A stretch of DNA of 64,000 nucleotides from NCBI GenBank assembly GCA_031082205.1, contig JAVHLJ010000010.1, positions 1-64,000 of the forward strand, given 5' to 3'. This document shows, piece after piece, positions 37,155-39,218 of this stretch (position 1 is its first letter; every line of letters begins with the position of its first letter). Source of the stretch: Elusimicrobiales bacterium. Its GTDB lineage: Bacteria; Elusimicrobiota; Elusimicrobia; Elusimicrobiales; UBA9959. The translations under genes were made by a program, and so were the position numbers. The notes under the pieces are model-generated. The model was not told the DNA's origin. It saw only the letters and a program-made list of their open reading frames with translations, and did not search any database.

Positions 37155-37162
37155 TGAAGGAC

Positions 37163-37250
37163 GGAGGGATGGCCGAGCGGTTTAAGGCGCCGGTCTTGAA
37201 AACCGGTGTACGGTTAACCCGTACCGTGGGTTCGAATCCCACTCCCTCCG
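37163..37250 (+). tRNA. tRNA-Ser (TGA)
   Basis: 88-nt class II cloverleaf with a long variable arm. Acceptor GGAGGGA pairs with TCCCTCC, anticodon loop CTTGAAA gives TGA, and the variable arm is GTACGG-TTAA-CCGTAC. No CCA is encoded (discriminator G followed by AAG). Confidence 0.96.
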
Positions 37251-37567
37251 AAGATTTTTGCATTTTTCTTTTCCGGAATTTAAATTTAAAATTTCTGCGC
37301 GCGCGGAATTAAAATTAAATATAAATTCCCAAGGTTTTTTGAACTCGACGGAAAGCCGCCGCCTGCCCCTACGGAAGTTTCAGGGCTGGCGCCCTGGGGA
37401 AACGCTGGCGCGTTTTCCGAACCAATCTTCTCTTTATGCGCCGCACGTAAGGCCAGCTTAGCTTTCAGCAAAGCCGGCCTTACGCTCGGCGGAGAGTTGC
37501 AGAATAGCACTTAATGCAGGTTTCGCCCTGCTGGGCCAAACCTGCATTAAGAGCACGGAGGTAAGGT
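37251..37567 (+). other. AT-rich to palindrome-rich intergenic region upstream of the recombinase
   Basis: No gene is seen. An imperfect AT-rich inverted repeat spans 37275-37329 and is unlike the surrounding GC-rich DNA. CCCCTACGG at 37366-37374 repeats nine bases of the tRNA-Glu acceptor/T-arm at 39050-39058. CAGGGC-TGGC-GCCCTG lies at 37381-37396. CGTAAGGCC (37446-37454) pairs with GGCCTTACG (37476-37484), with GCTTT/AAAGC inside. The region probably holds one end of the integrated element. Confidence 0.5.
37507..37554 (+). repeat. Large perfect palindrome before the recombinase start
   Basis: CTTAATGCAGGTTT (37510-37523) is perfectly complementary to AAACCTGCATTAAG (37538-37551). Inside, GCCC-TGCT-GGGC forms a second stem, and outside GC/GC adds two more pairs. 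It ends three bases before the ribosome site GGAGG at 37557. Candidate operator, leader hairpin or recombination site. Confidence 0.75.
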
Positions 37568-39073
37568 ATGCAGAACCTTAATATGCGGTATTTCCTTTAC
37601 GCCAGAAAATCAACCGACGAGCCGGACCGCCAAATCCTGTCCATAGAGGCGCAGCTCTCCGAACTGCGCGAGTACGCCCAAAAGGAAGGTCTTACAATCG
37701 CCCGCGAGTTCATCGAGAGCAAAACCGCCAAGGAGCCGGGGCGCGAAATCTTTAATGACATGATCGCCTCTATAGAGGACGGCATGGCGCAGGGCATTAT
37801 CGCCTGGCACCCGGACCGCCTGGCTCGCAACTCAATAGATGGCGGGCGCATTATCTATCTGGTGGACATCGGCAAGATCACCGCCTTGAAGTTCCCTACC
37901 TTTTGGTTTGACCCCACACCGCAGGGCAAGTTCATGCTGTCTATCGCCTTCGGGCAGTCTAAGTACTATGTGGACAACCTCTCGGAGAACATCAAGCGAG
38001 GCTTCCGCCAAAAACTTCGCAATGGTATCTGGCCCGCCTGCGCCCCGCTCGGTTACATCAACGACAAGAACACCAAGACGATCTATCCGGATAAAGACCG
38101 GGCGGTCTTTATCCGGAAGACCTTTGAGCTTTACGCCACAGGCGATTACCCGCTGGCGGAAGTCAGGCGTATAATGAACGGCGTTGGCCTGAAAGGGCGG
38201 CATACCACCCTTTCAGTGGGCAACTACCAGTATATGCTTAAGAACCCGGTCTATTATGGCCTTATTCGCTACAAGGGCGAACTTTACGAGGGCAAGCATG
38301 AGCCCATCATATCCAAGGCCCTCTTCGATAAATGCCAGGAGGTACTGCTTCGCAAAAGCAAACCCAAAGGGCCGCGCTTAAAGCCTTACACTTACCGGGG
38401 CGTATTTCATTGCGCTACCTGCGGTTGCTTCATCACTACGGAAACCCAAAAGGCGCACAACTACCTGCGTTGCACAAAGCGCAAAGGCTCCTGCGACGAG
38501 CCTTTCGTGCGCGAGGAAGTTATTGAGGAACAGATAAAAGGTGAACTAAAAAATGTTTCCTTACCCCCGGCCCTGGCCGCCTTGCTTATACAACACGCAG
38601 AAGCGGAAAAAGCGGCGGCGGCCCAAGCCGGGGAGAGTGCCCGGCAAAAGCTGCGAGATAACTTGGTTATCCTTACGGACCAATTGGGCAAGTTGCTGGA
38701 CCTGGTACTGCAAGGCCATCTTACACAGGCCGAGTACGCCAGCAAGAAAGCCCAATTGGTCAACGACAAAAAGGAAATTGAAAACAAACTCGCAGCTTTT
38801 GCGCGGGAGGGGAGGAATCGGCTCGAACCGCTCAAACGGTTCTACGCGCTCTGTGAAATTGCTGGGAAATCCGCGGTTTCTGGCAGTCCGTCTGAAAACC
38901 TGCAAATAATGAGAAAAATCGGCTCGAACTTCTTTTTGGGCGGGCAAAAAATAAAATTAAAATTTAATTTTCCGTCGGAGCAGGTGCGGGAGTTGCGGCA
39001 GGCGGCGGGCTTCGGAAAGCCCGGTTTTGAGACTTCAGAAATTTGGCGCCCCCTACGGGATTCGAACCCGTGA
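37568..39073 (+). CDS. Large serine recombinase (site-specific integrase)
   Basis: 501 aa with GGAGG six bases upstream. The N-terminal resolvase domain (~7-150) has YARKSTDEPDRQ with candidate nucleophile Ser15, and IIAWHPDRLARNSIDG. The Recombinase domain (~165-265) has GFRQKLRNGIWPACAPLGY, followed by a zinc ribbon (CATCGCF, then LRCTKRKGSC) and a coiled-coil region (~340-430). The last residues (IWRPLRDSNP) are encoded by the 3' end of tRNA-Glu on the other strand, as seen when such elements integrate into tRNA genes. Codon use is more AT-rich than the neighbours. No other element genes are present. Confidence 0.93.
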   Translation: MQNLNMRYFLYARKSTDEPDRQILSIEAQLSELREYAQKEGLTIAREFIESKTAKEPGREIFNDMIASIEDGMAQGIIAWHPDRLARNSIDGGRIIYLVDIGKITALKFPTFWFDPTPQGKFMLSIAFGQSKYYVDNLSENIKRGFRQKLRNGIWPACAPLGYINDKNTKTIYPDKDRAVFIRKTFELYATGDYPLAEVRRIMNGVGLKGRHTTLSVGNYQYMLKNPVYYGLIRYKGELYEGKHEPIISKALFDKCQEVLLRKSKPKGPRLKPYTYRGVFHCATCGCFITTETQKAHNYLRCTKRKGSCDEPFVREEVIEEQIKGELKNVSLPPALAALLIQHAEAEKAAAAQAGESARQKLRDNLVILTDQLGKLLDLVLQGHLTQAEYASKKAQLVNDKKEIENKLAAFAREGRNRLEPLKRFYALCEIAGKSAVSGSPSENLQIMRKIGSNFFLGGQKIKLKFNFPSEQVRELRQAAGFGKPGFETSEIWRPLRDSNP

Positions 39074-39120
39074 TCTCTGCCTTGAAAGGGCAGCGTCCTA
39101 GGCCGCTAGACGAAGGGGCC
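39044..39120 (-). tRNA. tRNA-Glu (TTC) with encoded CCA and an acceptor mismatch
   Basis: Minus-strand cloverleaf: anticodon loop CTTTCAA gives TTC, T-arm ACGGG-TTCGAAT-CCCGT. Acceptor 5' strand GGCCCCT faces 3' strand AGGGGGC, leaving a G2-G71 mismatch. CCA is encoded at 39046-39044, unlike the other three tRNA genes here. Its 3' end is overlapped by the recombinase ORF, so the end was probably supplied by the element. Confidence 0.93.
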
Positions 39121-39146: not shown

Positions 39147-39218
39147 AGCCGGCGAGAGGAATCGAACCTCCAACCTACTGTTTACAAAACAGTTGCTCTA
39201 CCGTTGAGCTACGCCGGC
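39147..39218 (-). tRNA. tRNA-Thr (TGT)
   Basis: Minus-strand cloverleaf: acceptor GCCGGCG pairs with CGCCGGC, anticodon loop TTTGTAA gives TGT, T-arm GGAGG-TTCGATT-CCTCT. No encoded CCA. It lies 26 bases upstream of tRNA-Glu and is probably co-transcribed; the spacer contains a TATAAT on the minus strand (39131-39136 region). Confidence 0.95.

Follow-up and report, generated by a model that had tools for sequence, protein, structure and literature searches.

Serine-recombinase islands predicted to insert at the 3' ends of tRNA and tmRNA genes, and a hybrid tRNA-Glu at the edge of one of them

In the window, by which we mean the whole 64-kb stretch of DNA analysed, the open reading frame of a large serine recombinase (37568-39073, plus strand) runs into a gene for tRNA-Glu, and its final codons overlap the tRNA in antisense. 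The same tRNA carries a G2-G71 mismatch in its acceptor stem, G2 lying at 39119 and G71 at 39049. Both features had been reported in the original prediction and were seen again in the sequence. The locus raises the question of how a recombinase gene came to end within a tRNA gene, and why this tRNA looks abnormal. The features concerned are the following.

37162 to 37251, plus strand: tRNA-Ser(UGA), called by ARAGORN; its 3' end is joined to the element (attL-like, Ser side) and the genomic CCA is lost
37252 to 37390, minus strand: 3' tail of a Ser-type recombinase in inverted copy, putatively the left arm of a second attP; compared in 60-bp blocks, 68-100% identical to Ser-type elements
37391 to 37567, plus strand: recombinase gene leader, in which several hairpins occur, from the sequence and the alignment with relatives
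37568 to 39073, plus strand: large serine recombinase (integrase), by Pfam; mosaic, with a Ser-type body and a Glu(UUC)-type 3' end; the stop codon lies within tRNA-Glu
38750 to 38802, plus strand: stretch in which Ser type switches to Glu(UUC) type; 53 bp identical to the Ser-type locus L219, the Glu-type locus L220 being followed downstream
38803 to 39043, plus strand: Glu(UUC)-type recombinase tail, the putative element arm of attL, from its identity to L220
39044 to 39120, minus strand: hybrid tRNA-Glu(UUC); bases 1-2 and the 5' flank as in a Glu(CUC) locus, anticodon to CCA as in Glu(UUC), with GGCGCCA as the core at the crossover region
39147 to 39218, minus strand: tRNA-Thr, called by ARAGORN

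ARAGORN placed tRNA-Glu(UUC) at 39044-39119 on the minus strand, and base 1 was assigned to 39120 from the relatives and the Rfam match. The recombinase of 501 aa contains Resolvase, Recombinase and zinc ribbon domains (Pfam E 1.6e-18, 1.4e-12 and 1.8e-7, respectively) and shows the catalytic-serine Resolvase domain of large serine recombinases, with a YARKS motif that is invariant in the alignment. The gene points away from tRNA-Ser and runs antisense into tRNA-Glu, so that the protein ends in ...EIWRPLRDSNP followed by the stop, the last residues being encoded by the antisense of the tRNA. Judged by its sequence, the locus is the putative integrase end of a serine-recombinase integrative island belonging to a widespread family.

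The original prediction had instead proposed a 1.7-kb remnant enclosed by two copies of CCCCTACGG, bearing the tRNA 3' end of a CCA-encoding host. The repeat does occur at 37366 and 39050 but fails as an att repeat: two copies of this 9-mer in 64 kb compare with a mean of 0.89 in shuffled sequences, 23 of 100 shuffles contained at least two copies, and the copy at 37366 is embedded in a 25-mer, GCCGCCGCCTGCCCCTACGGAAGTT, located upstream of the recombinase start and found at the equivalent place in Ser-type elements of other genomes. There is no second att site at 37366; the left side of the element is tRNA-Ser(UGA). The CCA fared no better as a mark of import. Within the window tRNA-Glu is indeed the only one of four tRNA genes to encode it, but at least 14 of the 38 tRNA genes examined genome-wide do so, and relatives without a recombinase at that gene, which the original prediction expected to lack CCA, have it, as in the tRNA-Glu(UUC) of G002:C45, which is identical to the window over 80 bp. 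The CCA is thus native to tRNA-Glu in the relatives, and delivery by the element was discarded. Nor is the mismatch explained by such a host, since all bases between the anticodon (T34) and G71-CCA, both included, are those of the relatives' Glu(UUC). What stands of the proposal is that the 3' part of tRNA-Glu differs in origin from its 5' part; with a chance-level repeat inside a conserved Ser-type repeat, a native CCA and a left junction at tRNA-Ser, the remnant is nevertheless very improbable. The sequence comparison places the true loss of CCA at the other end of the element: tRNA-Ser(UGA) reads CCTCCGCCA in relatives with an empty site and CCTCCGAAG in the window, and empty sites with CCA and terminator are present in G001 and G003. 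The Ser-type element thus changed the trailer of tRNA-Ser(UGA).

A scan of genome contigs returned at least 488 relatives of the recombinase, and the 80 listed came mostly from Elusimicrobia and Patescibacteria bins. In 63 of the 70 listed loci with enough sequence, the recombinase gene meets at its 3' end a tRNA or tmRNA encoded by the other strand, in agreement with the Islander-type definition of insertion at the 3' end of such genes; this adjacency is not due to chance, because tRNA genes make up less than one percent of genomes of this kind. Several loci lie at contig ends, which makes gene orientation uncertain in some assemblies. The targets comprise tRNAs for Ser, Glu, Asp, His, Gln, Asn and Lys together with tmRNA (...GCGCCTCCACCA, identified as tmRNA by ARAGORN). 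Close homologues in relatives of the same family were mostly matched over all 501 residues, and their genes end inside a tRNA (Ser, Glu, Asp or His) or a tmRNA. The loci thus define a large family in Elusimicrobiota and Patescibacteria whose predicted attB sites are the 3' ends of tRNA and tmRNA genes. A phage or plasmid origin was considered and rejected, as a single relative occurred in viral contigs and plasmid relatives were only distant (<60% identity, best rows <30%). In the order-level relatives with small genomes (L022-L033), distant recombinases of about 27% identity often end beside a tRNA (His, Pro, Leu or Glu), which suggests that the habit may predate the subfamily. No description of tRNA-wide serine integrases in these phyla was found in the open-access literature searched.

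An inverted copy of the gene's 3' end was present upstream of its start in all 33 testable loci. In fully assembled loci the copy usually spans 120-134 bp with 91-100% identity, and it starts at the boundary between tRNA and tail. The window is the exception, as no inverted repeat of its element's own tail was found there. Both attL and attR could be mapped end to end in two islands only. For G024:C5 these are GACCCCGCCAAATTTTTGAG next to tRNA-Asp and AAAACCCCGCCAAATTTTCGAAG at the far side, and for G031:C27 they are CTTCCGCCAAATTTTCTTC next to tRNA-Ser and AAGGCCCGCCAGATCTTTGG at the far side; what attL and attR have in common is in each case no more than a core around CCA, about 6-15 bp long. 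Each far side terminates in a unit of about 350 bp that is conserved and is also found inside the island, inverted, beside the left repeat. Identity of this unit with a known RNA was dismissed, Rfam giving only tRNAs above the gathering score. The G024 island, of about 24 kb (G024:C5, 20.6-45.0 kb; L114/L115), carries Gabija GajA/GajB and Pbe-like defence proteins as well as signalling genes for a histidine kinase and response regulators.

The antisense strand of the end unit encodes an alternative C-terminus of the recombinase. When the frame is read from the tail into the unit, it yields IWRxFQDEVRxYFAQHPEVTL and then a stop, and it is kept in all 15 distinct sequences; its pN/pS of 0.55, against 0.72-1.1 in the other frames tested, is only suggestive, the sequences having been picked by motif. 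Patescibacterial copies without a tRNA have similar ends (WRCAFEKIRTDFAQNL, RRVVDDVRTYW), and in four loci (L249, L263, L268 and L280) the gene is flanked on either side by an attP-like junction and no tRNA is present, the record of L268 being titled a complete genome.

These observations are best explained by an integrative island with attP inside the recombinase gene and tRNA or tmRNA 3' ends as attB, a reading to which we assign a probability of roughly 85%. One arm of attP would be the 3' tail of the gene and the other its last ~18 codons. Insertion, presumably catalysed by the recombinase on a circular form, would generate an attL in which the tRNA 3' end meets the recombinase tail and an attR in which the conserved end unit meets the old tRNA flank. 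As attP would lie within the gene, insertion would replace the last ~18 codons by antisense tRNA, swapping the C-terminus from ...WRxFQDEVRxYFAQHPEVTL to antisense tRNA codons. Since the second attP arm is inverted upstream, the circle should hold two equivalent attP sites in opposite orientation around the integrase gene, and the gene could end up facing the tRNA or away from it. The four loci with attP-like junctions on both sides would fit such a circle, and the recombinases of G002 and of the window, both facing away from tRNA-Ser, would fit integration through the other attP site. We incline, with a little more than even confidence, to the fuller proposal of a family specialised in tRNA and tmRNA genes with two inverted attP sites, a gene split across attP and a C-terminus rewritten at each integration, which could serve as a switch of activity or direction.

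The end unit was also observed in antisense directly behind tRNA-Glu at L166 (G005) and L168 (G004). No match to the recombinase was found in G004 and only a fragment in G005, and these units may be scars of lost islands. At L064 (G001:C44), the attL shows a tRNA-Glu(UUC) without nine bases (CCGTAGGGG) of T-stem and acceptor, which points either to a defective tRNA at this site or to an error in the contig.

Among described systems, A118/LI integrase and its relatives have the same order Resolvase-Recombinase-zinc ribbon, and structures of A118 integrase are matched by the profile. The well-known phage integrases have their attP outside the gene; the present family differs from phage-type large serine integrases in its predicted attP within the coding sequence and in its target, the 3' ends of tRNAs. 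The ssrA islands of Dehalococcoides, with the serine recombinase DsiB, insert at the 3' end of tmRNA (McMurdie et al. 2011, PMC3146451), and the 3' end of the DsiB gene invariably overlaps attL, which led the authors to suggest that the gene is fully functional only on the circle (PMC3146451). The two systems share a serine recombinase, the 3' end of a structural RNA gene and a gene overlapping attL. However, the DsiB islands have tmRNA as their single target, and their six-gene module includes DsiA, a second small recombinase, whereas the present family occurs at many tRNAs and at tmRNA and shows the inverted second arm of attP in all testable copies; no DsiA-like ORF (>=90 aa) was found beside the recombinase gene in the one island examined, that of G024. 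According to the Islander paper of 2014, only tyrosine integrases were known to target tRNA genes (PMC4383910). As in Islander islands, the target is the 3' part of tRNA and tmRNA genes and the integrase gene adjoins the tRNA, but the enzyme has serine recombinase domains in place of a tyrosine integrase and belongs to an unrelated integrase family. Moreover, Islander islands leave a long displaced tRNA fragment at attR, in contrast to the short core around CCA in G024 and G031.

With respect to the window itself, the copy is mosaic. From 37252 to about 38800 it is of Ser type, with 98-100% identity at 37321-37380 and, within the gene, 80-100% for the majority of 60-bp blocks, and the protein body falls in the Ser-targeting clade (tree support 100/97) as sister to L216 (96/95), although the gene ends in tRNA-Glu. 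Further downstream, 214 bp (38879-39092) are identical to L220, which lies at the tRNA-Glu(UUC) of a different genome, and the tRNA-Glu matches the Glu(UUC) of G002 exactly over 80 bp (39039-39118). Its first two bases, the tRNA-Thr neighbourhood and the upstream sequence are instead those of the Glu(CUC) locus of G001-G003, and the relatives' Glu(CUC) has a G2-C71 pair. Since the tRNA is Glu(UUC) from the anticodon and Glu(CUC) at its 5' end, the exchanged segment would comprise anticodon to 3' end plus the recombinase tail, i.e., 300-350 bp, between two switches that each lie in high local identity. The odd tRNA-Glu is thus a hybrid of two glutamate tRNA genes that arose by later recombination or by assembly error.

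Other contigs of the same genome bear on the origin of the two parts. Contig C5 starts with the attR of a Glu(UUC) element, in which the unit encoding RRHLDIVRDYFAQHPEVTL adjoins the native terminator. C12 stops about 130 bp short of the place where the Glu(UUC) gene is expected, and C39 breaks off at the start of the tRNA-Ser(UGA) flank; from these ends we infer that elements probably reside at both tRNA-Ser(UGA) and tRNA-Glu(UUC) in the window's genome. The flank of the Glu(CUC) element of G001 was not found in this genome. A bridge between tRNA-Ser and tRNA-Glu as a shared trait of the genus was not supported, the two genes lying on separate contigs in the relatives and the Ser and Glu(CUC) tails of G002 being different. 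A small GC-rich repeat (GGGATTCGAAAGCCGGAGCCGCGAGC...GTGGCCGAATCCC) was also noted at five places in the genome, some near tRNA genes: C5 (L073 ~825-925), C39 (L206 end), C53:11487, C66:77668 and C30:122. In C5 and C39 it lies between two copies of a tRNA 3' flank with terminator, and its ends resemble the tRNA T-arm TTCGAATCCC.

Two accounts of the window junctions were weighed. An assembly chimera, in which the assembler joined a Ser-type element at tRNA-Ser(UGA), facing away from the tRNA, with the tail from a Glu(UUC) element, and the tRNA of that tail with the 5' end of Glu(CUC), has about an even chance of being correct. It agrees with the separation of tRNA-Ser(UGA) and tRNA-Glu/Thr in the relatives, with the presence of another gene after tRNA-Ser in G001 and G003, with the ends of C12 and C39, with a contig of another bin (L219) that ends at the same gene position, and with exact stretches of 24-35 bp common to Ser- and Glu-type genes. 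That the only tRNA-Glu found in the genome carries the mismatch points the same way, as such a tRNA would be harmful if real. On the other hand, the chimera requires two misjoins 300-350 bp apart where one gene-conversion tract would explain both, and the ORF is open across the join.

That tract is the core of the other account, a true gene conversion or rearrangement involving two elements that resided in one cell, by which the tail and the tRNA 3' part of Glu(UUC) entered a locus bridging tRNA-Ser and tRNA-Glu(CUC)-Thr, to which we give somewhat less than even odds. Here the two switches in register, the intact ORF and the mosaicism of the family elsewhere find a ready explanation, and the long identity to L220 suggests that the exchange was recent; yet the differing tails of the Ser and Glu(CUC) elements of G002 offer no independent bridge. 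We place the chimera slightly ahead. If it is correct, the family and its mechanism stand, but the contig as assembled is present in no cell.

The finding carries a warning on genome quality, as multi-copy elements of this kind interrupt contigs and may give rise to hybrid tRNA genes during assembly. The reconstructable att pairs and the target-specific recombinase tails make target choice, and possible control by C-terminal exchange, directly testable, and the family could supply integrases for tRNA landing sites. An enzyme class said not to target tRNA genes is thus represented, in two bacterial groups, by a serine recombinase family at several kinds of tRNA and at tmRNA, which appears to act as a carrier of defence genes among poorly cultured bacteria.
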